From Parasphingorhabdus litoris DSM 22379 (GTDB lineage Bacteria > Pseudomonadota > Alphaproteobacteria > Sphingomonadales > Sphingomonadaceae): DNA of 64,000 nt. The stretch lies in the NCBI RefSeq assembly GCF_020906275.1, contig NZ_CP086727.1, positions 372,001 through 436,000 of the forward strand. The letters run 5' to 3'. The notes under the pieces were generated by a model. The model saw only the letters and a list, made by a program, of their open reading frames with translations, did not search any database and was not told the DNA's origin. Made by a program: the position numbers and the translations under genes. This document shows positions 20,440 to 63,377 of this stretch, piece by piece. Positions within the stretch are counted from its first letter, which is position 1; each line of letters opens with the position of its first letter.

Positions 20440-20988
20440 TTAGTCCTTCTTCTTCGCAGCTGGCTTTTTAGCAGCTGGCTTTTTGGCTGGAGCCTTCTTG
20501 GCTGCAGCTGGTTTTGCTTCGGTCTTGGCCGCGGCTTTTTTAGGCGCTGCTTTTTTCGCTGGTGCCTTCGCTGCAGCTTTCTTGGCCGGAGCGGCCTTTT
20601 TAGCAGGCGCAGCTTTCTTTTCAGCAGCTGGTTTCGCATCCGCAGGTTTAGCAGCTTCCTTTTTAGGAGCAGCCTTCTTGGCAGCTTTGGCAGCACCGAT
20701 GGCATTGATCTTCAGCACGGTGTGCTGCTGACGATGGCCGTTTTTGCGGCGATAATTGTGCCGGCGGCGCTTCTTGAAGATGATAACCTTCTCGCCTTTT
20801 TCCTGTGCAACAATTTCAGCAGCCACGGTCAAACCTTTGACGTCCTTCATATCGCCGCCGTCACCAGCCAGCAAAACGTCATCAAGGGTTACCGAATCAC
20901 CTGCTTCACCAGCAAGTTTTTCGACTGCGATTATATCTCCTGCGGCAACACGATATTGTTTACCGCCGGTGCGCACTATAGCGAACAT
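20440..20988 (-). CDS. rplU: 50S ribosomal protein L21 with long Lys/Ala-rich tail
   Basis: Residues 1 to about 103 are a complete L21 ([35 protein letters not shown]). The protein then continues for about 80 residues of repeats of the AKKAAPKK / AAKKPA kind, resembling histone H1 C-termini, to a total of 182 residues; ordinary L21 is about 100-105. The tail should be disordered and strongly basic, able to bind rRNA or DNA. Longer L21 forms occur in alphaproteobacteria. ATG at 20988 is the conserved L21 start; an ORF extension to 21027 adds non-conserved residues. Confidence 0.96.
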
Positions 20989-44830: not shown

Positions 44831-46194
44831 GTGTCCAATCCAATCCCTTTAAGCGCACAACAATCATCATCATGTTCGCTATCGGTTTTGCGGCCTTTGT
44901 CGCATTGCTTTATGGCTTGGGGGCGGGCGACCGGCTGTCTTCCGGCAATAATGGCCGGGCGCATGGGGCCTCGAACAGTCTGGTCGGCTACAAAGCTCTG
45001 GCCGATCTTTTGGAAAAAACCGGGCGCGATGTGCAATTGTCGCGCAGTGCGGCTGGTATCGACGAGCCCGGTTTGCTGATTGTTACGCCCAATGCCTATG
45101 CCGAAGCGGACAAGCTTGCCGAGGTTATACAAGAGCGCGCCTATGTCGGGCCAACGATGATCATCCTGCCAAAGTGGAATGTCGCAACAACCAATCTTGT
45201 CGGAATGGAATCGAGAAAGGGTTGGGCGCAGCGCCTCGGCACCGTTGCCAGTGATTCTGGCGTAAAGATGTTGAGCGAGATTGTGGACGTCGAGCTGCAG
45301 ACAATTGGTCCGGAAGAAGATAGCCAAGCGGAGAGCAGTGAAAACAATTCTGCGGTTGCAGTGGGAAGACCGTCTGTGGATTCCGAATTCAACCCATCCG
45401 AAATTGCCAGTTCCGCTGTTGGTGATCCGATTCCCCTGCCAGAAATTCATATTACGATGACCGGTGATTATGTTCGCAATATTGTCGAGGATCCGGAAAA
45501 CGGAGAGTCGTTGATCGCCTATGTCGATGATGGCGGCGTTTATGAAAATCTGGAAAGTCTTGATCCATCTCAGATTACGGCCGACGATGAAATAGACACA
45601 GCATTTTATCCGGTCGTCATCGTGGCTGATGCGGATCTGATGAACAATACCGGGATGGGCAATGAGCGGGTTGCGCGCCACGCCTATGATCTGATCACCG
45701 CGCTTGAGGCACAGACGGATGGTCCGATCATTTTTGACCTTACGTTCAACGGACTGGGTTCATCGGACAACCTTTTGACTCTGGCTTTCAAGCCGCCATT
45801 TTTGTCGGCAACCATCTGCCTGATCATTGCCGCATTAGCAGCGGCCTGGATGGCTTTTAATCGTTTCGGACCACCTGTGCGTGAACAGCGCAGCATAGAT
45901 TTTGGCACGACGGCTCTGGTCAACAACAGCGCGGGTTTCATTCACCGGATGCAGCGCGAACGCTTGGTCGCTGATCCGTATGGCGAAATGATCCGCAGCG
46001 AGGCGATCAATGCTCTTGGGCTGTCCCCAGCTTTGGATCGAGAGGAGCTGGATCACAAACTGGATATGCTTGGCGAGGTAAACGGGAACCGGTTCTCAGC
46101 ATTATTGTACAATCTCAATCAGGCCCAAAATTCTCGCGAAACTGCTGACCATGCAGCAGCGCTCTATAATTGGAAAAAGGAACTCATCGGATGA
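44827..46194 (+). CDS. DUF4350 domain-containing membrane protein
   Basis: A 455-residue protein with an N-terminal membrane segment ([19 protein letters not shown], near 15-33) and a second near 330-345 ([15 protein letters not shown]). The large extracytoplasmic part has a [29 protein letters not shown] block typical of the GATase-like DUF4350 region. ATG at 44827 overlaps the DUF4129 stop by four bases. Function unknown; a consistent partner of MoxR/DUF58 operons. Confidence 0.85.
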
Positions 46195-47147
46195 ATATCG
46201 GCGAATTGAAGACACTGGCAGACAACATCCGAGCGGAGGTCGCCAAAGCGATTGTCGGACAGGAGGAAATTGTCGATCATATGCTGATCGCCCTTTTTTC
46301 CTCTGGTCATGTGTTGCTGGAAGGGCCGCCAGGAACAGCCAAAACATTTTTGGCTCAGTGTTTTTCGGCGACCCTTAGCCTCGACTTCGGCCGTATTCAG
46401 TTCACGCCCGATCTAATGCCGGGCGATATTGTTGGTTCTAACCTTTTCAACTTTCAGACAAGCACATTCACGTTGACCCGTGGGCCGATATTTTGCGACC
46501 TTCTGCTCGCTGACGAAATCAATCGGACCCCGCCCAAAACCCAGGCCGCCATGCTGGAAGCCATGCAGGAACGCGCCGTGACTATCGATGGTGAAACGCA
46601 TGACCTGTCATCTCAGTTCATGGTGGTTGCCACGCAAAATCCAATCGAACAGCAAGGGGTCTATCCGCTGCCTGAAGCACAACTTGATCGTTTTCTGTTC
46701 AAGCTGCTGATCGAATATCCCGATGCAGAAGAAGAGAAGAAAATTGTGAGCCAATATGGCGAGCGTATTGGAGCGCCAGAACCAGAGCAGTTCGGGATCA
46801 GCGCACAAGTTGATGAAAAAACCCTCATCGCGGCATCAGAGGTCGTTAAATCGGTCAAGCTGGTCGAGGACGTAACCGACTATATCGTCCGGTTGGTCCG
46901 CGCTACGCGAGAGACAGCTGATTTGGAAAATGGCGCTAGTCCGCGCGCTGCCATCATGCTGGCTACCGCAGCGCGTGCGCGGGCTGCTATATCTGGCCGC
47001 GACTATGTCGTTCCGGACGATGTAAAGGCATTGGCACCATCCGTGTTGCGCCACCGGACGATCTTGTCACCGGCAGCGGAGATTGAAGGGCGTCAGGTGG
47101 ACACGATTATCGAAGCTCTGGTAGAACGAACGGAAGCACCGCGTTGA
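46191..47147 (+). CDS. MoxR family AAA+ ATPase
   Basis: A 318-residue MoxR ATPase. Walker A GPPGTAKT at 45-52, Walker [25 protein letters not shown] (about 105-128), and sensor 1 [26 protein letters not shown]. MoxR proteins act as chaperones that insert cofactors or assemble complexes together with vWA-domain partners; here the partner is the DUF58 protein of the next gene. ATGA overlap with the upstream stop. Confidence 0.95.
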
Positions 47148-48463
47148 TCTACCCCACCGCCCGGGCTGTTTTCCTGATCGCTGTTGGCGCACCAATTGCG
47201 GCTGTGCTCGCGGCCATCATGCCCAATCTCTGGGCCATCGGGATCGCTTGGGCTGCGATGTTAATGTTACTTTTGTTTGTCGACGGTTTGATCGCAGCCA
47301 AGGCTGGCAGCGTTCAGCTGACGGTCCCTAAGACGACGGAAATCGGCGCGCCATTGGAACTTCATGTTCAAGCCAAATTTGCCGGATTAATGGCCCCGCA
47401 TTTGGTAAGCGGAAGCCTGGGCGTTGATGGTCGGTTGTCCGACAATGGCCAAGTCGCGTTTACGCTGAGTAGAGCCGAGCCACAGGACCGAATCTATAGT
47501 GGCGCGGCAACAACGAGAGCGAGCCGCCGCGGGACCGGAGATATTGGTAAACTCTGGCTGCGCTGGAAGGGACCGTTGGGGTTGGCCTGGCGCCAAACTT
47601 CCAAGAAGAGCGATCAATCGATCGCGGTTATGCCTAATATTTCGGCCGTGCGCAGCCCAACCGTTCAGATGTTTTTACGCGATTCCATCTTTGGCCTTCT
47701 GGCTCGTAAGTTTCGCGGTGAAGGAAGTGAGTTTGAAGCACTAACCGAATATCAGCCCGGGATGGACCGGCGTAGTATTGATTGGAAAGGTTCGGCGCGG
47801 CACAGCAAATTGCTTGCCAAGGAATATGATACGGAGCGGAACAATCAGATTGTCTTCGCACTGGACTGCGGTTCAGCCATGTGTGAACCGATTGATGGTT
47901 TGCCGCGCATCGATCGCGCCGTATCTGCCGCGCTGCTGACCGCTTATGTTACCCTGAAATCCGGCGACAAAACTAGCCTGTTCAGTTTTGCCGCAAAACC
48001 CGAACTGTCGACGCCTTTCCTGTCTGGCAGTCGAAATTTCTATCGCTTGCAACAGGATGCGGCGGCAATTGATTATAGACATCAGGAAAGCAATTATACT
48101 TTGGCTTTATCTGCACTTTCCAATCGTTTGCAACGGCGCTCGCTGATCATTATTTTCACCGATTTTACCGATCCGACCAGCGCCGATCTGATGCTGGAAG
48201 CGGTAGCGCGTTTGATTGACAAGCATCTCGTTCTGTTTGTGGTCCTGGAAGATGAAGAACTCTCAGAGTTTATCAAAAAGGAACCGGAAGATGCAGAAGA
48301 TGTGGCACGCAGCGTCACGGCGCAAAGCTTGCTGGAGCAAAAGAAGCTGGTGGTCACGCGTCTGCAGCATATGGGTATTGATGTCATCGAAGGAGCGCAC
48401 AAGGATATCGGCACGCGTTTGATCAATAGTTACCTCAAGATCAAACGGCGCGGAGCAATCTGA
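47144..48463 (+). CDS. DUF58 domain-containing protein (vWA-like)
   Basis: A 439-residue protein: two hydrophobic segments near 1-45, then a conserved block [26 protein letters not shown] followed by ALDCGSAM, the DUF58 vWA-like core. The MIDAS position reads DxGxA, not DxSxS, so metal binding may be altered. DUF58 proteins are the usual MoxR partners. Start is TTG, overlapping the MoxR stop (TTGA); an alternative start further in is not obvious. Substrate or client protein unknown. Confidence 0.88.
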
Positions 48464-49506
48464 TGGCCAATATGGCAACAGATCTCACAGCCGAGCAAGC
48501 TATAGAAAATGCGGCTCTGAAAAGTGATCGCTTCCGGTTGGAACGAGAAGCGGACTGGATGCGGCTGGAAGACATTGTTACCAAGATGGAGAAGGGCAAG
48601 GCACGGCAATTGAGCGATGACGATGTATTGGCGCTTCCCACACTCTATCGAACTTTACTGTCTAGCCTGTCGATCGCGCGTGAAAGCTCGCTTGACGCTG
48701 GGCTAATCGACTATCTTGAGGGCTTGTCACTGCGGGCCTATTTCATGGTTTATGGGACGCAGACCAGTTTTGGGCAGTGGCTTAAAGGCTTTTTCGGCGG
48801 CGGTTGGAGCCAATCGATCCGTGAAATAAAGCTTGATATCTGGATCGCTCTATTTGTCATGATTGCGGGAACGCTGATTGGCTATGTGCTGGTCGCGGGG
48901 GACAGCGATTGGTACTATGCGCTTGTTCCCGGTAATTTCGCCGATACACGAGTGCCAGGCGCCAGTGAAGCGGCGCTGCGCGAAACCTTGTTCAGTACCG
49001 AAGATCATGATGGCCTGGGAGTGTTCGCGGCCTATTTGTTCAGCAACAACGCCCAGGTTGCCATTCTGGCTTTTGCACTGGGTTTTGCTTTTGCGGTGCC
49101 GAGCATATTGTTGCTCATCCACAATATGGCGCTTCTTGGAGCCATGGTTTGGGTGTTTGCGCAGCGCGATTTGACCGTTGAATTTATCGGCTGGCTCTCG
49201 ATTCACGGGACGACAGAGTTGTTCGCCATATTATTGGCGGGCGCAGCCGGTATACATGTCGGACGTTCGATTGCTTTTCCTGGTGCCAAATCGCATTTGA
49301 AAGCGGCCAGCGATGCCGGTAAGCGCGCGGCTCTGGTGATGGCGGGTGTCGTGATCATGCTGATTTGCGCGGGATTGCTGGAGGGATTTGCCCGCCAACT
49401 CATCAATGATACTGGCCTGCGCTATCTCGTTGGTGGAGCCATGCTGACATTTTGGTTGGTCTATTTCTTCGCCTTTGGCCGAAACCGGGTGGAGGAACGC
49501 CCATGA
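48463..49506 (+). CDS. SpoIIM-like (stage II sporulation protein M family) membrane protein
   Basis: A 347-residue membrane protein with four or five segments (near 125-145, 200-225, 245-265, 285-305, 320-335). The QVAILAFALGFAFAVPSILLLIHNMALLGAM region and ELFAILLAGAAGIHVG mark the SpoIIM/YtrH-like family. The organism is not a sporulator; the family is found in many bacteria without spore formation, often beside MoxR/DUF58. ATG at 48463 overlaps the DUF58 stop by one base (TGATG). Confidence 0.85.
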   Translation: MANMATDLTAEQAIENAALKSDRFRLEREADWMRLEDIVTKMEKGKARQLSDDDVLALPTLYRTLLSSLSIARESSLDAGLIDYLEGLSLRAYFMVYGTQTSFGQWLKGFFGGGWSQSIREIKLDIWIALFVMIAGTLIGYVLVAGDSDWYYALVPGNFADTRVPGASEAALRETLFSTEDHDGLGVFAAYLFSNNAQVAILAFALGFAFAVPSILLLIHNMALLGAMVWVFAQRDLTVEFIGWLSIHGTTELFAILLAGAAGIHVGRSIAFPGAKSHLKAASDAGKRAALVMAGVVIMLICAGLLEGFARQLINDTGLRYLVGGAMLTFWLVYFFAFGRNRVEERP

Positions 49507-50453
49507 CCAGCACGACAACAGATCCTTGGATCAGGCGGTCAAACAATACCAAGTTAGACCGGATCATGGTGTCGCCGGAAGGGGTCCCGCTTAACGTTAC
49601 AGTGGCAACGGCCGGTGCGCGTGCTGGTGCATTGACACTGGATATCATCATCATATTGGGCCTGATCCTGGGGGTGACCTTGTTGGGCTTTCTAGCTCTG
49701 TGGGGTTTTGAGGCAGCTTTTGATGACAATATCGTGCTGGAGGAAAGTGGCCCACTCAGTGTTGTAGCGGTTCTTTGGATCATTTCGGTATTCTTATTTC
49801 GAAATGCCTATTTCCTATATTTTGAACTGGGAGATCGGGCTGCTACCTGGGGGAAACGCGCCGTCGGTATCCGGGTCGCCGCACGCGACGGGGGCCGGTT
49901 GACAGCGGAAGCCGTGATCGCTCGCAATATTATCCGTGACATCGAATTGTTTTTGCCTTTGGTATTCATCTCGTCCGGTGAAGCGGATGGATCGATGAGC
50001 GACTTTACGGCCTGGGCTGGATTTCTCTGGGTGCTGATGTTCCTGCTCTTCCCATTGTTCAATAAAGACAGATTGCGTTGTGGCGATCTGATCGCCGGAA
50101 CATGGGTGATTCAGAATGTGAAGCGGAATCTGGATGGTGTTGTCGCGCCATCAGCAGAACTTTCGGCAGATCCCACTACGGGTAAGACCACCAGCCGTTA
50201 TGAGTTTTCCGACGCCGATCTATCAGTATATGGTGAGTTCGAGCTTCAGACGCTGGAAAGCGTGCTGCGGACCGGGACGGATGAAGCGCTTGCAACAGTA
50301 ACCGCTTCGATCTGTAACAAGATTGGTTGGGAGCCTGGCAGCGGAGATGAGCGGATATTCCTGGAAGCATATTATACGGCGCTGCGTGCGAAACTGGAGC
50401 GCGGTATGCGGTTCGGAAAAAGACGCAAAGACAAATTTTCTCAAGACATTTAA
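49503..50453 (+). CDS. RDD family membrane protein
   Basis: A 316-residue protein, last gene of the MoxR operon. The RDD domain (about 30-180) has Arg and Asp in GARAGALTLDIIII and RDGGRLTAEAVIARNIIRDIE, with two or three membrane segments. The C-terminal 120 residues are soluble and helical. RDD proteins often pair with transporters or ion antiporters. ATGA overlap with the upstream stop. Confidence 0.88.
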   Translation: MTSTTTDPWIRRSNNTKLDRIMVSPEGVPLNVTVATAGARAGALTLDIIIILGLILGVTLLGFLALWGFEAAFDDNIVLEESGPLSVVAVLWIISVFLFRNAYFLYFELGDRAATWGKRAVGIRVAARDGGRLTAEAVIARNIIRDIELFLPLVFISSGEADGSMSDFTAWAGFLWVLMFLLFPLFNKDRLRCGDLIAGTWVIQNVKRNLDGVVAPSAELSADPTTGKTTSRYEFSDADLSVYGEFELQTLESVLRTGTDEALATVTASICNKIGWEPGSGDERIFLEAYYTALRAKLERGMRFGKRRKDKFSQDI

Positions 50454-50605: not shown

Positions 50606-51833
50606 ATGAACCTGGAGTTCACTGCAGAAGAAAAAGCTTTTCGCGACGAAGTGCGCAGCTTTATCGAAAATAATTATCCTCAGAATATCGAACGTGCGGC
50701 GGTTCAGGACGACATGAGCCCTGAAGACATGACAGCATGGCATAAAATTCTGGGTGAGAAAGGGTGGTCGGTTCCGGCTTGGCCAGAGCAATATGGCGGA
50801 ACCGGCTGGACGCCGACACAGCGTTATATCTGGTCGGAAGAAAATGCACGGGTCAATGCAGTCATGCCGCTGCCATTTGGTGTCGCGATGGTCGGCCCGG
50901 TTATTTACACATTCGGCAATGAAGAACAGAAAGCCAAACATCTGCCTGGCATTCGCAGCGGCGATGTGTGGTGGTGTCAGGGCTATTCCGAGCCGGGTGC
51001 CGGGTCTGACCTTGCCTCATTGAAAACCACGGCTGTGCGCGACGGTGATGACTATATCATCAATGGTCAGAAACGGTGATGACTATATCATCAATGGTCA
51101 GAAAACATGGACTACCCTCGCGCAACATGCCGATTGGGGCTTTTTCCTGTGTCGTACGGATCCCGACGCTGCCAAGCCGCAGGAAGGCATCAGCTTCATT
51201 CTGGTCGACATGAAAACTCCCGGCATTGAAGTGCGTCCGATCAAGCTGATCGACGGGGGTTACGAGGTCAACGAAGTGTGGCTCACTGACGTGCGTGTGC
51301 CTGCGGAAAATCTGATTGGCGAAGAGAATAAGGGCTGGACCTACGCGAAGTTCCTGCTGGCGCATGAGCGTTCCGGCATTGCTGGTGTGGCGCGTTCCAA
51401 ACGCGGTGTCGAGCAGCTGAAAGAAATTGCCACGCATGAGCTGCTCGACGGTGAGCCGCTGCTTCAGGACATGGGTTTTGCAACCAAGATCAGCCAGCTC
51501 GAAATTGATCTTGCGGCGCTGGAAATTACCGAGCTGCGGACGCTCGCCGGTGAGCAGGCAGGCAAGGGACCAGGACCGGAAAGTTCGCTGTTGAAAGTGA
51601 AAGGCACGGAAATCCAGCAGCGCCTGACCGAATTGACGCTGGAAGCAGTTGGCCATTACGGCACGCCTGATTTCCGCAGCTTTCCGGCCGATGGGTCGAA
51701 TGACTTCCCGATCGGTCCGGACTATGCACACAGCGCGGCTCCGACCTATTTCAACATGCGCAAGACTTCGATCTATGGGGGATCGAACGAGATTCAGCGT
51801 AACATCATCACCAAAATGGTCCTCGGGCTTTAG
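50606..51833 (+). pseudogene. Acyl-CoA dehydrogenase, broken by 31-bp tandem duplication
   Basis: A PimC-like acyl-CoA dehydrogenase of what would be 398 residues. The N-terminal part (MNLEFTAEEKAFRDEVRSF, then GYSEPGAGSDLASL for flavin/CoA binding) reads to residue 157, where a perfect 31-bp tandem duplication (51043-51104) puts a TGA in frame at 51077. The rest (TWTTLAQHADWGFFLCR through IYGGSNEIQRNIITKMVLGL) continues in another frame to 51833. Removing one copy restores one uninterrupted reading frame. The product as read is truncated before the acyl-binding part, so probably inactive; a restart at 51045 or 51048 is not credible. Sequencing or assembly error is the main alternative. Confidence 0.9.
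51043..51104 (+). repeat. Perfect 31-bp tandem duplication inside an acyl-CoA dehydrogenase gene
   Basis: Two identical, adjacent copies at 51043-51073 and 51074-51104. The unit begins CGGTGATGACTATATCATC. Length 31 is not a multiple of three, hence the frameshift. No transposon ends or other insert lie beside it. Confidence 0.97.
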
Positions 51834-51867
51834 ATCCAACCCGCAAATATAATAAGAAAGCGAAACT

Positions 51868-53007
51868 ATGGATTTCAATTTTTCTGACGAACAAAATATG
51901 GTTCGTGACGGTATTTCCCGGCTTGTTCGGGAACAATATGACTGGGATACACGCCGTGCCGTGATCTCTAGCGAATCTGGCTGGCGTCCCGAATTCTGGG
52001 CGCAGCTTGCCGAATTGGGCATGCTGGCAGCCCCATTTTCCGAAGAAGATGGCGGCTTTGGTGGCGGCGCAGTGGAAACCATGCTGATCATGGAAGAATT
52101 TGGCAAAGGCCTAGTGGTCGAGCCTTTCATTCCAAGCGTGGTCTGCGCGGGTGGTTTCCTGAAACATGCCGGAACCGCGGCGCAGAAAGAAGAATATCTC
52201 AGCGCGATCATCGCCGGCGAAAAGGTTTTTGCTTTCGCCTATGCCGAACCGCAGGGCCGCTATGATCTGGCCAATCTGACAACCACGGCGAAAAAAGACG
52301 GCGACGGATACACACTTAACGGTCACAAGGCCGTCGTGATTGGTGCGCCTTGGGCGAGTCATTTCATGGTCACCGCGAGAACCTCTGGCGGACAGACGGA
52401 TGCAGGCGGTGTATCGGTGTTCATCGTTGCCAAGGACGCCGACGGCGTCAGTCTGCGTGACTATGCAACTGTCGATGGTCGCCGCGCATCGGAAGTCTAT
52501 TTTGAGAATGTTTCAGTCTCGGCGGATACCCTGATCGGAGAGCTCGACAACGGCCTGCCATTGATCGAGACGATTGTTGATGAAGCGACAGCGGCGGTTT
52601 GTGCTGAAGCCACTGGCGCGATGCAGGTGACCCATGCGATGACACTGGAATATGCAAAGCAGCGTAAGCAATTCGGCGTGCCGATCAGCAGCTTCCAGGT
52701 GCTCCAACACCGGATGGTTGATATGTTCATGGAATATGAGCAGTCGATCTCCATGTCTTATCTCGCGACGATCAAACTTGCCGAAGACGAAGCGGCCCGC
52801 AAACATGCGGTTTCATCTGCCAAGGTCCGCATCGGACAATCGGCGCGCTTTGTCGGTCAGTCGGCGGTGCAAACCCATGGCGGCATGGGCGTGACGGATG
52901 AAACGGCGGTTGGCAGCTATTTCAAGCGATTGTCGATCATCGAAAGCGAATTTGGCAGTGTCGATCATCATATGCGGCGGCACGTCAAACTGTCTGCGAC
53001 TACCTAA
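51868..53007 (+). CDS. Acyl-CoA dehydrogenase family protein (PimD-like)
   Basis: A 379-residue flavoprotein dehydrogenase. FSDEQNMVRDGISRLVREQ, AYAEPQGRYDLANLTTTA, NGHKAVVIGAPWASHFMV and GGMGVTDETAVGSYFKRLSIIESEFGS are family blocks. It follows the broken gene by 34 bases with an in-phase AAGAAAGCG ahead, the typical arrangement of a two-subunit acyl-CoA dehydrogenase (large and small subunits, as in pimeloyl-CoA or sterol-side-chain types). If the partner is truly defective, this product may be orphaned. Confidence 0.88.
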   Translation: MDFNFSDEQNMVRDGISRLVREQYDWDTRRAVISSESGWRPEFWAQLAELGMLAAPFSEEDGGFGGGAVETMLIMEEFGKGLVVEPFIPSVVCAGGFLKHAGTAAQKEEYLSAIIAGEKVFAFAYAEPQGRYDLANLTTTAKKDGDGYTLNGHKAVVIGAPWASHFMVTARTSGGQTDAGGVSVFIVAKDADGVSLRDYATVDGRRASEVYFENVSVSADTLIGELDNGLPLIETIVDEATAAVCAEATGAMQVTHAMTLEYAKQRKQFGVPISSFQVLQHRMVDMFMEYEQSISMSYLATIKLAEDEAARKHAVSSAKVRIGQSARFVGQSAVQTHGGMGVTDETAVGSYFKRLSIIESEFGSVDHHMRRHVKLSATT

Positions 53008-56568: not shown

Positions 56569-57531
56569 CTATAGTGCGATAGTACCATGGGTGCGGCTGA
56601 ACCGGCTGTGATAGGTTTCGATAATTTCTGTCAGTGTGGATAGCGCGAGTGTCGCCGGATCGCGCGTGGATGGGATGATGCCTATTGGTGCTTTCATGCG
56701 TTTGATGTCTTCGTCGCTGACGCCAATGGCGTTGAGCAAAGCCTTGCGCATGTCGTGGGTTTTGAAACTGCCCATGGCGCCGATGTAAAAGGCCGGGGAT
56801 GCCAGCGCCTGTTTCATCAGCTCGGCTTCCCAATCATGATCGTGGAAATAGAAGATGCAGGCGGTCCATGGATCAGCCTGATAGAGATCGGTCGCCGCCG
56901 GTGTCTTGAGCAGGCTAGCGGTTCCGCCTTGTCCGGTGACACGCGCCACGATGTCGGCATCAGGAGTCAATATTTCGCAGTCGAGGCCATAGGATGCCGT
57001 GAGATTGGCGAGATTCTCCACCACTGCGCCATGGCCAAGGATCACGATTTTCGCAGGAGGGACATGATTGACATGAACCCATGATCCTGCGCTGATAACA
57101 GCTTGATCCTGTTCGGCTGGCGTACAGCTTAGCGCGCCCGTCTCGCGATCCATGCTGATCGTGAAGGGCTGTCTTTCCATGACTGCATCATATAGTTCTG
57201 CTGCAACGCGCGCATCGGGCAAAGGCGTAAATAGCAAATCAATGCCGCCACCGCAGGGAAGGCGAATGTCGAGATAGGGCGATCCGGCGCCAAAGCGGAC
57301 TTTGCGCGGGGCACCTTCGCTGATGCAATCCACCGCCTCCGCGATGACCGCAGTTTCAATGCAACCACCGGAAAAGGAACCTGCTGCGCTGCCATCCGTA
57401 GCGACCGCCATATGCGCCCCGGGATTGCGGGTGGAGGCGCCAGTGACCGCCGTCAATGTCACGAGAGCACAGTCCAGACCGGCCTCGGTCTTGTCTTTCA
57501 GAAACTGGAATATCGGAAATATATTGTTCAA
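56569..57531 (-). CDS. xdhC: XdhC family protein
   Basis: A 320-residue member of the XdhC/CoxI family, which helps insert sulfurated molybdenum cofactor into xanthine-dehydrogenase-type enzymes. N-terminal CoxI part with TGASTRNPGAHMAVATDGSAAGSFSGGCIE, then a Rossmann-like C-terminal half (IVILGHGAVVENLANL, FYIGAMGSFKTH). The first codon is TTG at 57531. No molybdenum enzyme gene is adjacent; the nearest candidates are the ior-type genes 14 kb away. Confidence 0.88.
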   Translation of the reverse strand: MNNIFPIFQFLKDKTEAGLDCALVTLTAVTGASTRNPGAHMAVATDGSAAGSFSGGCIETAVIAEAVDCISEGAPRKVRFGAGSPYLDIRLPCGGGIDLLFTPLPDARVAAELYDAVMERQPFTISMDRETGALSCTPAEQDQAVISAGSWVHVNHVPPAKIVILGHGAVVENLANLTASYGLDCEILTPDADIVARVTGQGGTASLLKTPAATDLYQADPWTACIFYFHDHDWEAELMKQALASPAFYIGAMGSFKTHDMRKALLNAIGVSDEDIKRMKAPIGIIPSTRDPATLALSTLTEIIETYHSRFSRTHGTIAL

Positions 57532-57595
57532 GCGCGCCGCAATCTATTGTTTCAAAGATGCTAGCGCAGTTTGGATGATGCCTGCAATGTTTCGT

Positions 57596-58369
57596 TTAGC
57601 GCCCGCCGGTGACGAACAGGCACTGGCCGGTCACCCAGCTGGCAGCCGGAGAGGCCATATAGATTACGGCTGCGGCAATATCTTCCTCCGTGCCATAGCG
57701 TTGCAGAGGGATGCCGATATGCTTGAGCAGTTTCTCGCGGTCATCCTCGGACTTTATCCCCATGGATTCATCAAAATTCTCGGTCGGGATCGGGCCAGGC
57801 GCCACCGCATTGACGCGGATTTTCGGCGCGAGTTCAAGCGACAAAGTACTGGTCAGGCTATTCACGGCCGCTTTGGATGCGCCATAGGGGCCGTTTTTAA
57901 TCTGCCCGCCAAAGGAGGTGCGGGATGAGGTGTTGATAATCACGCCGCCATCATCCTTCATATGTTTCGCGGCAACGACAGCGCCCATCCAGACGCTTTT
58001 GAGATTGAGATCAATTTGCGCGTCCCAATTGGCTTCCGGCGTTTTGGTCAGATAGCGCGGCGTGCCATCGGGCAATCCGCCAGCATTGCTGACCCAGATG
58101 CTGAGCTTGCCGAGTTCTGCAACCGTGCGTTCTGCCAGATGTTCGAGCGCCGCCATATCGGTGACATCAGTGGCGACCGTAATTGCGCGGCGGCCGAGTG
58201 CGCGGATTTCTTCTGCGACGGCTTCAAGATCGCCGGCAGTGCGGGCGGCGAGCGCCACGTCTGCACCGGCTTCTGCCAGACCCAAGGCGATCGCGCGCCC
58301 AATACCTTTGCCCGCGCCAGTGACGACCGCGACGTCGCCTTCCAGTTTGAAATTGTCCAAAATGCTCAT
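57596..58369 (-). CDS. Short-chain dehydrogenase/reductase
   Basis: A 257-residue SDR: VVTGAGKGIGRAIALGL for NAD(P), WVSNAGG, INTSSRTSFGG with the catalytic Ser, YGASKAAVNSLT as the Tyr/Lys pair, and VNAVAPGPIPTENF. ATG at 58369; longer readings from 58498 have a basic, non-conserved start. It lies between xdhC and hyuB on the same strand, so it is probably part of the Hyu catabolic unit. Substrate unknown. Confidence 0.93.
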   Translation of the reverse strand: MSILDNFKLEGDVAVVTGAGKGIGRAIALGLAEAGADVALAARTAGDLEAVAEEIRALGRRAITVATDVTDMAALEHLAERTVAELGKLSIWVSNAGGLPDGTPRYLTKTPEANWDAQIDLNLKSVWMGAVVAAKHMKDDGGVIINTSSRTSFGGQIKNGPYGASKAAVNSLTSTLSLELAPKIRVNAVAPGPIPTENFDESMGIKSEDDREKLLKHIGIPLQRYGTEEDIAAAVIYMASPAASWVTGQCLFVTGGR

Positions 58370-58440
58370 GTGCAAAGCTCTCCCTTGCCGCCGTGATGAT
58401 CGGCGGCAAGGGGGAAGTCCACTAACAGAAGCATTGGTTG

Positions 58441-60306
58441 TTAGGCAGCGGCATGTCCCGGTTGCACGGGCGCTGGCAGGCCGGTTTCTTCGACACAATT
58501 GGCCCGCAATGTATCGATATCGGGTCCGAAGTTGAACGGACTGTCGGTTTCGGTGATCCGGCTTGCCATATCAGCGCGTAACCTTTCCGTGGCAGCAGCG
58601 TCAACTTTCCCGTCATCCGCGATGACCACGCCATATTCGCGCGCGCCATCGACCGTGACCAGACCTTGGCGGATTTCCAGGGCTACCAGCTCGGGATCGC
58701 GTTCCAGTGGGCTCCCCCAACCGCCACCGCCCCAGGTGATGAAGTGCAACTGATCACCCTCTTCCACGGTGACTTCCTCAACTTTGTTCCCGATGATGGT
58801 GCTGCTGCCATCCTCTTTCTCCAGAATTTTCCGCGCCCGCTTGCCCGGCTCACCACCATTCACACCCCATGGCGGCACGAACCAGCGGTCATCATGGATG
58901 GAAATCGTACCAGCAGCGAGGAAACGATAGCTCAGATAGATACCGTTGCCGCCGCGATGCAGTCCCGCACCACCGCTATCCGGCGCCGTCTCATAGCGCT
59001 CGATCCGCAGCGGGAAGTAGCGCTCAAGAAACTCATTCGGTACATTGGTAAAGCCGGGCCATAACGAATGACCATCCGGTCCATCACCCAGCGGCCGTCC
59101 CGGTATACCGCCAAAACCAATCTGAAAGAGCTGAAACCAGTCACCTTTCTTGTCATTGCCGGAATAGAACAGATGAGGCGAGGATGAGAATCCTGCGGCA
59201 TTGAGGAATTCCGGCGTCTTCTGGCCCAGTAACCCGCCCAAGATGTCGAAAATCCGCCCTAACGCATGGGTACGACCCGATAATGCTGCCGGGAATTTCG
59301 GCTTGAGTAGAGAGCCTTCTGGAATCCTTACATCAATGAGATCATAAAACCCGTCATTGAACAGGATTTGCGGGTCGAAAACCATGATCATGTAGATGCC
59401 AAAGAACATCTTGAACATATTCTCGTTCAGGAAGAAGTTAATGGAAGCGCCACTTTGTGGATCGGTCCCCTCAAAATCGAGGATAACCTTGTCGCCGTCC
59501 CGCCACATCGTGCACTTTATCTTGTAGGGACCGGCACCAATGCCATCGTCACAAATATAATCTTCAAAGCTCACCGGCTCTTCACCAATCGCCTGACCAA
59601 TCAACGTTTTCATCGCGCGATGATTGCGGGCGAGCAGTTCCTGCGTTGCTGAAACATAGACATCATCGCCGAACCGTTCTGCCATCTCTATGACCCGGCG
59701 GGCGGCTACGCGGCAGGATGCGATAATCGCGTTGATATCCGCCTGGCACCAGTCTGGCTTGCGTGTCTGGTGCATGACGAGCTTCATCAGGTCTTCGTTA
59801 TATTCGCCCTTTTTCCAGATTTTTACCGGCGGAATCCGGACGCCTTCTTCAAAAATGGACTTCGCATCAATCGGCATCGAACCGACGACCTTGCCGCCAA
59901 TGTCAGACTGATGGCCAAACATTGCGGTATAGGCAATCAACCGGCCATCCTTGAATATCGGCAGCAATATAAGCCAGTCGTTATTGTGGCTGACCGCGCC
60001 TTCGCAGCTATAGGGATCGGACAGGAAAATCATGTCACCATCTTCGAGCGTCCCATCAAACTGTTCCAGGAAACCACCGATGAAACTGCCGAATTGGCCG
60101 ACAATCATCTTGCCGGTGTGATCGGCAATGAGCGGAAACGCATCGCCCTGTTCCCTGATGCCAGGAGACATCGCCGTGCGAACCAGTGTCGCGTCCATTT
60201 CAATGCGCGCATTACGCAGGGCGTTTTCGATAATGTCGAGTGTAACCGGATCAATGTCGATTTTCTCAAACGGCGTGTCATTGGTTTCAATGATTGTTGC
60301 AGGCAT
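58441..60306 (-). CDS. hyuB: Hydantoinase B / oxoprolinase family protein
   Basis: A 621-residue HyuB-family subunit. FEKIDIDPVTLDIIENALRN at the start and FGHQSDIGGKVVGSMP, VILDFEGTDPQSGASINFF, GGAGLHRGGNGIYLSYRFL and FITWGGGGWGSPLERDPE are family blocks. HyuA/HyuB enzymes use ATP to open rings (hydantoin, oxoproline) or to carboxylate ketones (acetone/acetophenone carboxylases). GGAGGGA lies before the ATG at 60306. It follows hyuA by one base. Confidence 0.93.
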   Translation of the reverse strand: MPATIIETNDTPFEKIDIDPVTLDIIENALRNARIEMDATLVRTAMSPGIREQGDAFPLIADHTGKMIVGQFGSFIGGFLEQFDGTLEDGDMIFLSDPYSCEGAVSHNNDWLILLPIFKDGRLIAYTAMFGHQSDIGGKVVGSMPIDAKSIFEEGVRIPPVKIWKKGEYNEDLMKLVMHQTRKPDWCQADINAIIASCRVAARRVIEMAERFGDDVYVSATQELLARNHRAMKTLIGQAIGEEPVSFEDYICDDGIGAGPYKIKCTMWRDGDKVILDFEGTDPQSGASINFFLNENMFKMFFGIYMIMVFDPQILFNDGFYDLIDVRIPEGSLLKPKFPAALSGRTHALGRIFDILGGLLGQKTPEFLNAAGFSSSPHLFYSGNDKKGDWFQLFQIGFGGIPGRPLGDGPDGHSLWPGFTNVPNEFLERYFPLRIERYETAPDSGGAGLHRGGNGIYLSYRFLAAGTISIHDDRWFVPPWGVNGGEPGKRARKILEKEDGSSTIIGNKVEEVTVEEGDQLHFITWGGGGWGSPLERDPELVALEIRQGLVTVDGAREYGVVIADDGKVDAAATERLRADMASRITETDSPFNFGPDIDTLRANCVEETGLPAPVQPGHAAA

Positions 60307-60307
60307 T

Positions 60308-62365
60308 TTATTGTCCCTCCGCCAGATTGATAAGGATATTGCCGACTGCATCCACTTCGCCGATACAGCCTGTTTCGATCAGGGTCGTCGAGTCCATCTC
60401 CACCACGATCGCCGGCCCAGTTATGACATCACCCTGTTTGAGTTTGGCACGATCGTAAATCGCCCCATCCTGTTCTGCGCCATCCATCCACAATTTATGA
60501 TCGCGGATTTTGGCATCCGATGGGTCGCCATTACCCTTTGGTAACTCGGCGGCTGGTAAATTGAGTGATTGCCCCAGAGCCACGGCGCGCAGGTTCACAA
60601 TCTCATGCGGTGTATCCATGTTGAAGGTGAAGAGGCGGTGATGCTCTTCATCAAAGCGGGCCAATATGCCCTCAATCCCATCGCGATCCAGCACTTCCGG
60701 TGTGATAGTCAATGGCACCTCAAAAGCCTGTCCGGCATAGCGGACATCGACTTCGAATTCGCTGGTAATGTCTGCTTCCGCTACGCCATCAGATAGCAAT
60801 TCCGCACGGGTTTGATCGGCCATTTCCTTCAGGATCGCGATCAGCTCGGATGCGTCCGTTGTGGTTGCAAGGCGAGAGAAAGAGCGCGCCGTTTCTGTGC
60901 GCATCCGCGTTGTCGCATCGCCCAAGGCACACAGCACACCGGGAGATACCGGTGATACTGCTGGCCAACTGCCCATCAGCTTGGCAACCGCGTTAACGTG
61001 CAGCGGCCCTGCTCCGCCAAAACCCATTAGGGCAAAGTGGCGCGGATCATAGCCTTGTTGGACAGAGATCATCCGCAGCGCGCCGAACATATTCTCATTC
61101 ACAATATCAATAATACCGCGCGCCGCCGCCATCAGGTCAATACCAAGCGCATCGGCGATTTTTTGAACCGACTTTTTGGCACCCTCACGGTCCAGTTGGA
61201 AAGAGCCACCGAGCAGGTTTTCGGGTAGATAACCAAGTACAACATTGGCGTCGGTAACCGTTGGCTCTTCACCGCCCTTGCCATAGGCAACCGGTCCCGG
61301 CACCGCGCCAGCCGATTGCGGACCGACGCGCAAAGCGCCGGTTAATTCCGGCACATAGGCAATCGAACCGCCGCCAGCGCCGACTGTTTTTACGTCCAGC
61401 GAAGAAGCGCGTACAGACAAATGGCCGACCTCGGTTGTCCGAACCCGGCGCGGTTCCAGATTTTCGATAAGCGCCACGTCGGTCGAGGTCCCCCCGACAT
61501 CAAGTGTCAGGATGTTTTTCAAGCCTGCATTTTTCGCAACCCAGACCGCGCCGGTTACGCCGCCAGCTGGACCGGACATCAGAATATTGACCGGATGCTC
61601 TTCCGCCTTTTGCGAAGACATCAGGCCGCCGTCTGATCGCAACAGTGAAAAGCGACCCGCCATTCCTGCATCAGCCAGCTTGGACCGCAGGTTGGATACA
61701 TAATGACCGACAACTGGCCGAACCGCCGCATTGGCAACCGTGGTCAGCGTGCGCTCATATTCCTGCATTTCAGGCAGCACTTCGTGGCTTAACGAATAGG
61801 GTATCTCCGGCATTTCAGCCGCGACCATTTCGCCGATCCGACTTTCATGCGCACCATTAGTATATGCGTTCATCAGGGAAACTGTGACCGCCTCGACGCC
61901 TTGGTTTTTCAGATGGGTGATGGCTTCGGAAACGCTGCTCTCATCCAATGGCCGCACTTCGTTGCCATCGGCATCCATGCGTTCCTTTACGGTGACGGTG
62001 TTCTCCAGCGCCGCCAAGGGTTGCGGTTTTGGCCAGATAATCCAGGCTGCCAGACCGCCGGGTACAAAACTCCGAGCGATCTGCATGATATCGCGATAGC
62101 CCTCGGTGGTGATCAGGCCAACTTTCGCGCCTTTGCCTTCCAGCACCGCGTTGGTGGCGACGGTTGTACCGTGTAGAAAATATTCAATCTCGCTGGCTTG
62201 CACATCGGCATCGGCGCAAATCGCGTTCACACCGTTCAAAATACCTTCAGAACTATCATGGGGCGTAGACGGCGTTTTGGTGCGCCAGAATTGTCCGGAT
62301 TGATCGTTGAACAGCAATAGATCGGTAAAGGTTCCCCCGACATCAACGCCTAGTCGATACCCCAT
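60308..62365 (-). CDS. hyuA: Hydantoinase A / oxoprolinase family protein
   Basis: A 685-residue ATP-dependent subunit. The N-terminal GVDVGGTFTDLLLFN and later ILTLDVGGTSTDVALIE are the two phosphate loops of an actin-like ATPase fold; HGTTVATNAVLE matches HyuA. Together with HyuB it forms the core of hydantoinase, oxoprolinase or ketone carboxylase; a third small subunit, usual in carboxylases, is not seen. ATG at 62365 lies 10 bases after GAGAGAG. In an operon with an HMG-CoA-lyase-like gene. Confidence 0.93.
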   Translation of the reverse strand: MGYRLGVDVGGTFTDLLLFNDQSGQFWRTKTPSTPHDSSEGILNGVNAICADADVQASEIEYFLHGTTVATNAVLEGKGAKVGLITTEGYRDIMQIARSFVPGGLAAWIIWPKPQPLAALENTVTVKERMDADGNEVRPLDESSVSEAITHLKNQGVEAVTVSLMNAYTNGAHESRIGEMVAAEMPEIPYSLSHEVLPEMQEYERTLTTVANAAVRPVVGHYVSNLRSKLADAGMAGRFSLLRSDGGLMSSQKAEEHPVNILMSGPAGGVTGAVWVAKNAGLKNILTLDVGGTSTDVALIENLEPRRVRTTEVGHLSVRASSLDVKTVGAGGGSIAYVPELTGALRVGPQSAGAVPGPVAYGKGGEEPTVTDANVVLGYLPENLLGGSFQLDREGAKKSVQKIADALGIDLMAAARGIIDIVNENMFGALRMISVQQGYDPRHFALMGFGGAGPLHVNAVAKLMGSWPAVSPVSPGVLCALGDATTRMRTETARSFSRLATTTDASELIAILKEMADQTRAELLSDGVAEADITSEFEVDVRYAGQAFEVPLTITPEVLDRDGIEGILARFDEEHHRLFTFNMDTPHEIVNLRAVALGQSLNLPAAELPKGNGDPSDAKIRDHKLWMDGAEQDGAIYDRAKLKQGDVITGPAIVVEMDSTTLIETGCIGEVDAVGNILINLAEGQ

Positions 62366-62393
62366 ATTATTCTCTCTCTTATTATTTCTGCAT

Positions 62394-63314
62394 TCAGGCT
62401 TCGGCCCTTGCGACAAGCGATGGCAAAGGCCGTTTCATTATTGTTTCAAACCATTGGTTGGTGGCGATGGCCTTTCGTAGGTCAACACCGTGACGGATGG
62501 ACGAACGGTCAAGAAGGTTGATCAAATCCTCGGTTGCAATATTGCCCGTTGCATTAGGCGCGAAAGGACACCCCCCTAGACCGCCAAGGCTTGCGTCCAG
62601 TGTCGACACCCCAGAGCGCACTGCCGCCCAGGCATTCGCAATACCGGTATTGCGCGTGTCATGAAAATGGGCGCGCATCGTGATGTGGTCAGGCAGTATT
62701 TCGCGAAGACGTCCGAAAAGATCCTCAACCTGTCCCGGAACCCCGACACCGATCGTATCGGCGAGCGCTATTTCGAGCGGTTCTTCTTCGGCCATCTCGC
62801 TTGCGATGTTCAAAACAGTCTCAGGTGGGACGTGGCCTTCAAAGGGGCAACCAAAGGCAGCAGAGATAGTGACCTGTGCTTTCAGGCCTTCCGTTTTGGC
62901 AAAGCGGATCATCTCACGATTCTCTCTGATGCCTTGCTCGATGGTTTGGCCTTGATTCTTTTCGCCGAACGTATCGCTGGCAACGATCACGCAGCCCGCT
63001 TCGTCGATACCCCGTTTGCCGCCCTCTTTTGTTGCAAGTCCGCGTAGAACACCGCGTTTGTTGAGGCACAGCCCGATATACGACATGTCTTCGCGGTCGG
63101 GAAGATCAGCAATAACGGCCTCAGCGTCAGCCATTTGCGGGACGCGCTTGGGATGGACAAAGCTCGCCACCTCCATTCGCCGAATACCGGCATCGATCAT
63201 GCGGTTTATCAGGCCAAGCTTGTCACCGGTCGATATGATTTCCTGCTCGTTTTGTAACCCGTCGCGCGGGCCGACTTCAACGATATTGACTGATATGGGG
63301 TTTTCATGCGCCAT
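62394..63314 (-). CDS. HMG-CoA lyase family protein
   Basis: A 306-residue enzyme of the DRE-TIM metallolyase type. VEVGPRDGLQNE carries the catalytic Arg-Asp; HFHDTRNTGIANAW holds the metal-binding His pair; GGLGGCPFAPNATGN is the late Gly-Cys loop containing the catalytic Cys. The HDTRNTG variant differs from HDTYGQ of classical lyases, so the substrate may be another 3-hydroxy-3-methyl-acyl-CoA or a 3-hydroxy acid. Probably the first gene of hmgL-hyuA-hyuB-SDR-xdhC. The start at 63314 is chosen because further upstream the sequence is the operator region. Confidence 0.9.
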   Translation of the reverse strand: MAHENPISVNIVEVGPRDGLQNEQEIISTGDKLGLINRMIDAGIRRMEVASFVHPKRVPQMADAEAVIADLPDREDMSYIGLCLNKRGVLRGLATKEGGKRGIDEAGCVIVASDTFGEKNQGQTIEQGIRENREMIRFAKTEGLKAQVTISAAFGCPFEGHVPPETVLNIASEMAEEEPLEIALADTIGVGVPGQVEDLFGRLREILPDHITMRAHFHDTRNTGIANAWAAVRSGVSTLDASLGGLGGCPFAPNATGNIATEDLINLLDRSSIRHGVDLRKAIATNQWFETIMKRPLPSLVARAEA

Positions 63315-63318
63315 AGAA

Positions 63319-63330
63319 ATTGTATACAAT
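63319..63330. promoter_or_regulatory. Palindrome ATTGTATACAAT in the divergent promoter
   Basis: Perfect 12-bp palindrome between the HMG-CoA-lyase-like and CaiB-type genes. A second imperfect site CTTTGTATAGCAAAAG lies about 11 bases further (63341-63356). TTGTATACAA is typical of GntR/FadR-type operators, so a GntR-family repressor may control both directions. No GntR gene is in the window. Confidence 0.5.
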
Positions 63331-63377
63331 CTATATTTTCCTTTGTATAGCAAAAGGATCATGCAGGAGGTTTTTTA

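Follow-up and report, generated by a model that had tools for sequence, protein, structure and literature searches.

A perfect 31-bp tandem duplication interrupts an acyl-CoA dehydrogenase gene in the genome sequence of Parasphingorhabdus litoris DSM 22379

Inside an acyl-CoA dehydrogenase gene of Parasphingorhabdus litoris DSM 22379, a perfect head-to-tail 31-bp repeat was found at positions 51042-51103 of the window, the 64,000-nucleotide stretch of contig NZ_CP086727.1 (positions 372,001 to 436,000) that was analysed in this study. The explanation that we favour, and consider probable, is that a spontaneous and very recent tandem duplication has inactivated the gene for a large-type subunit of the enzyme; that the repeat is a real mutation is likewise judged likely. 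Read in this way, it is an ordinary spontaneous loss-of-function mutation and not a new kind of system.

The repeat unit, ACGGTGATGACTATATCATCAATGGTCAGAA, is present exactly at 51042-51072 and again at 51073-51103 on the forward strand, and the two copies differ at no base. Base 51104 also matches, which prolongs the second copy by 1 bp of junction homology, so that 51043-51104 is the identical repeat in another register. A preliminary description made from the letters of the sequence had placed two exact adjacent copies at 51043-51104, and this was borne out, the two registers being equivalent. At the single-copy junction, the homology at the borders is one base (A). The unit contains a small inverted repeat (TGATGA/TCATCA), no other copy of it within 3 mismatches was found in the genome, and Rfam gave zero matches within the window at gathering scores.

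With a score of 126 against 58 for the next, the 31-bp repeat was the top-scoring tandem repeat in the window. Exact tandem units of 10-600 bp were found at five places in 1,164,000 bases (about 32% of the genome), with basic units of 31, 16, 15, 12 and 12 bp, the last consisting of two 6-mers and the 15-bp array appearing at period 30 too. Because the repeat is the best of its window and no other basic unit longer than 16 bp was found in these 1,164,000 bases, chance is an unreasonable account of its origin. Among the five places, only the 31-bp repeat breaks a frame; the other four leave frames intact, since the 16-bp unit sits on a stop codon and the rest are multiples of three. The 16-bp duplication (L168:2225-2256; G000:C1:3,352,225-3,352,256) is exact and overlaps the stop codon that ends a 212-codon frame, which is unbroken. 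The 15-bp unit (CCCGTTCTTTTTGAC) is repeated exactly nearly five times (L183:11222-11295; G000:C1:756,222-756,295), with frames open on both strands. Imperfect 15-bp repeats (GCAGCTGGCTTTTTA and similar) are also present at 20456-20687 of the window, where long open frames run on both strands.

Scripted deletion of one copy yields, as had been proposed, a single 398-codon frame from ATG 50606 to the stop codon at 51831-51833. With both copies, the frame from ATG 50606 reads ...RDGDDYIINGQKR and stops after 157 codons at TGA 51077-51079, confirming the predicted end at 51079. Since 31 bases are 10 codons plus 1 base, the second copy brings its TGATGA into frame and so causes the premature stop; the duplication alters the reading frame and with it the product. 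The 5' piece of this large-subunit-like acyl-CoA dehydrogenase (50606-51079, forward strand) matches the Pfam domain Acyl-CoA_dh_N in full (1-113 of 113) and Acyl-CoA_dh_M at 1-35 of 97, and the stop falls within the middle domain. The 3' piece lies in the next frame, which is open from 51024 to 51833 on the forward strand; it comprises 262 codons from GTG 51045 to 51833, has in-frame ATGs at 51048 and 51063, and carries most of the remaining middle domain as well as the C-terminal domain. Between 51024 and 51079 both frames are open.

An intact, pimD-like partner subunit of 379 aa is encoded directly downstream at 51868-53007 on the forward strand, its start lying 34 bases past the stop codon of the broken gene. 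The preliminary description had recognised it as a paralogous second subunit, in agreement with the domain content: both adjacent genes have the Acyl-CoA_dh_N, _M and _1 domains, those of the first gene being distributed over two pieces. The best solved match of P0001, a database protein identical to the one-copy reading, was chain A of 4x28 (E 1.7e-55). For the partner the best solved matches were 7w0j and others, while chain A of 6wy8 and chain D of 4x28 ranked lower. We take 4x28 and 6wy8 to be two-subunit steroid-type enzymes. These nearest solved structures suggest that the gene pair may form a two-subunit complex. The best named matches of the pair were the NCBIfam pimeloyl-CoA dehydrogenase models pimC (TIGR03204) and pimD (TIGR03203), which have curated equivalog cut-offs, yet both genes fell below them: P0001 scored 516.1 bits against pimC_large (E 5.6e-155; cut-off 623.85) and the partner 432.9 bits against pimD_small (E 1.1e-129; cut-off 652.7), so that any assignment of a substrate would be tentative. 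The pair is like those of PimC/PimD, 4x28 and 6wy8/6wy9 in consisting of two adjacent acyl-CoA dehydrogenase genes, and unlike them in that one subunit gene is broken in the P. litoris genome. A close paralogue as a back-up was rejected, the next best protein of the genome being 45% identical, although 21 further places besides the partner have matches to the family at E 0.001. Opposite the broken gene and the partner, a 383-codon antisense open frame (51060-52211, reverse strand) was observed; it is also open in the nearest relative (391 codons, 77% identical over 381) and is probably a codon-usage shadow.

The locus was compared across the genus in a set of 32 genomes with one per species, that of P. 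litoris included. The broken gene matched 31 of the 32 genomes at E 1e-100 and the partner gene 31 of the 32 at E 1e-120, the own genome being counted in both cases. The genome without a match to the broken gene at 1e-100 (G007) is 82% complete and gave only an 81-base match to the 3' end of the gene, at a contig edge. The locus was fetched from 29 of the 30 matching relatives, and all 29 carry a single copy with a continuous protein alignment across the site; none is duplicated there. In 27 of them the alignment is gapless over all 398 residues. The other two are L144, which has a five-residue insertion upstream of the duplication site, and L145, which is cut by a contig end after residue 320 with the site still covered. 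The thirtieth relative (G021) was judged by match length alone: its matched stretch of 1,192 bases is shorter than the 1,226 bases of the query, so it would not hold an extra copy. In a wider search that found 588 loci, 80 were kept, some of them from the same genus. In 79 of these, a single copy of the motif lies in one open frame that is 396 codons long or longer; the remaining one (L108) was missed by the motif search. The closest named protein matches come from Parasphingorhabdus and Sphingorhabdus. Among all genomes examined, the duplication therefore appears to be private to the P. litoris genome, and an old inactivation shared by descent is rejected, as the duplication is absent in every relative read. 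Such a comparison with close relatives had been called for; for annotation it means that the dehydrogenase should not be taken as absent by descent from the P. litoris genome, since nearly all of the genus has it.

Several observations bear on the age of the event. P0001 (398 aa) and the one-copy reading agree at 398 of 398 residues, among them A179, E183 and L269, which occur in none of the 11 relatives compared; the next nearest of the 14 database proteins compared (P0004) has 6 differences. The one contig recorded for P0001 has 1,272,438 bp whereas that of the window has 3,610,303 bp, and the different sizes imply that P0001 is not from the same assembly. No other genus genome exceeds 87% DNA identity in the one-per-species set (31 other genomes), so the most likely source of P0001 is a second genome of this species or a separate assembly of this strain. 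Against the nearest relative, the one-copy gene has a dN of 0.0076 and a dS of 0.7262, and across the 11 relatives compared, out of the 29 fetched, dN ranges over 0.0076-0.0211 and dS over 0.71-1.21. These values indicate that the gene was kept by strong purifying selection until the duplication; a decayed gene under relaxed selection is rejected on the same dN range, and no sign of decay was seen elsewhere in the coding sequence. Taken together, the private duplication, the purifying selection and the intact partner point to a very recent event or to an artefact of one assembly. The earlier suggestion that the gene had just become a pseudogene gains support from the private state of the duplication, the identity of its copies, the existence of P0001 as an intact and identical protein, and the lack of other decay. 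When the 157 N-terminal residues were used as the query, the broken product itself had no entry among the 120 matches listed of 1,412. Among the matches listed, the top one by E-value was 88% identical; P0296 reached 98% identity, though across only 62% of the query.

We propose that the 31-bp tandem duplication arose very recently, in the strain or in its sequenced culture, probably through misalignment or a template switch during replication, at a junction with no more than 1 bp of homology. That this homology is a single base (A) suggests that no pre-existing repeat was used. Translation then stops after 157 codons within the middle domain, the 3' piece cannot rejoin the frame without a +1 shift, and the subunit, hence probably the two-subunit enzyme, would not be made; the allele is most likely null for the large-type subunit. 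Direct repeats of 31 bp can be lost by slippage, and the precise loss of one copy in this way could restore the gene; the available portions of the literature on reversible duplications gave no loss rate for a repeat of 31 bp. Folding was compared with 200 shuffles, giving a z of -0.58 for 43 nt with one copy, -0.74 for 91 nt and -2.48 for 62 nt with both copies, where 4 of 200 shuffles were equally good. The last value is unremarkable, as it is expected of a repeated inverted repeat. A hairpin as a hot spot for duplication was rejected given the one-copy z and the nearest relative, which has the same inverted-repeat arms without the duplication.

An origin of the second copy in assembly or sequencing had been raised in the preliminary description and is possible, though rather unlikely; the gene would then really have one copy, and the second would stem from an overlap left unmerged or from a local error in the consensus. 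Such an origin predicts an identical one-copy protein in another assembly, and P0001 is one; exact duplications of about 31 bp arise from unmerged contig overlaps, 31 is a common assembler k-mer size, and the absence of any base difference between the copies fits as well. Several specific routes to such an artefact find no support here. A repeat-mediated assembly break is rejected, since the unit is unique in the genome within 3 mismatches and there should be no repeat-broken assembly graph at the site. An untrimmed chromosome end is not supported: the chromosome closes cleanly elsewhere, its contig end and start sharing no exact overlap longer than 10 bp and one reading frame, presumably hemE, spanning the join, and the contig begins elsewhere than at dnaA, whose PF00308 match lies at 3,338,065, so that nothing obvious marks the site as a rotated end. 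Recurrent duplications of one length, as from concatenated contigs, were not seen in the 32% of the genome sampled, and none of the 55 20-kb stretches taken outside the window held an exact tandem duplication whose basic unit exceeds 16 bp. Furthermore, only one of 53 reading frames matched in the nearest relative (G019, 87% DNA identity) is split, namely the broken dehydrogenase. These frames have at least 100 codons and at least 60% identity, include antisense frames and cover 30.6-64 kb of the window; the G019 stretches taken gave no match of this kind to the first 30.6 kb, which lies outside the count. The checks speak against a generally sloppy assembly, not against a single local error. 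The site is a simple place for checking the assembly against reads.

Very little weight is given to the gain and loss of the duplication acting as a reversible ON/OFF switch, with the genome OFF and P0001 ON. We find it similarly improbable that a sphingomonad catabolic enzyme is toggled in the population by this duplication, with P0001 as the ON state of the same lineage. Slippage can delete direct repeats of such size, and Waite et al. are said to have described, in 2001 and 2003, spontaneous tandem duplications in capsule genes of Streptococcus pneumoniae that reportedly give phase variation. The loss of the capsule by strains through a tandem duplication within wchA receives a passing mention in PMC4022640, and recombination at tandem duplications is named as one mechanism of localised hypermutation in PMC4235727. 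In the portions of these sources available, the pneumococcal capsule duplications appear to be the closest precedent, with only the anatomy shared: in both cases an open reading frame would be inactivated by a short direct duplication within it and restored by the precise loss of that duplication. Unlike the capsule genes, the present case concerns a metabolic gene of a sphingomonad, with no recurrence among relatives at the locus, and an inner metabolic enzyme would be an unusual target of phase variation. Nothing evident predisposes the one-copy gene to duplicate, given the 1 bp of junction homology and a 43-nt stretch that folds no better than its shuffles. No sign of switching was found, that is, neither recurrence at the site in the fetched relatives nor a second state in a proven same strain. 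It is extremely improbable that the gene is still expressed, through +1 ribosomal frameshifting or a restart of translation, as a 408-residue protein carrying a ten-residue repeat or as two fragments. The overlap of the frames and the in-frame ATGs just ahead of the stop would allow it, but the break lies inside the middle domain, no slippery motif or ribosome-binding sequence was recognised by eye, and the relatives read have one uninterrupted frame with no frameshift. If both copy states were present in one culture, the locus would offer a small, clean natural assay of the rate at which a 31-bp direct repeat is lost.

The neighbourhood of the gene pair contains two rows of genes. Directly 5' of the broken dehydrogenase, MoxR-type ATPase, DUF58, SpoIIM-like and RDD-family genes lie in a row at 46170-50453 on the forward strand, and each has a counterpart in the nearest relative with the order kept. 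Downstream, at 56572-63362 on the reverse strand, XdhC-like, short-chain dehydrogenase, hydantoinase B and A, and HMGL-like genes form a row that is possibly a catabolic cluster.
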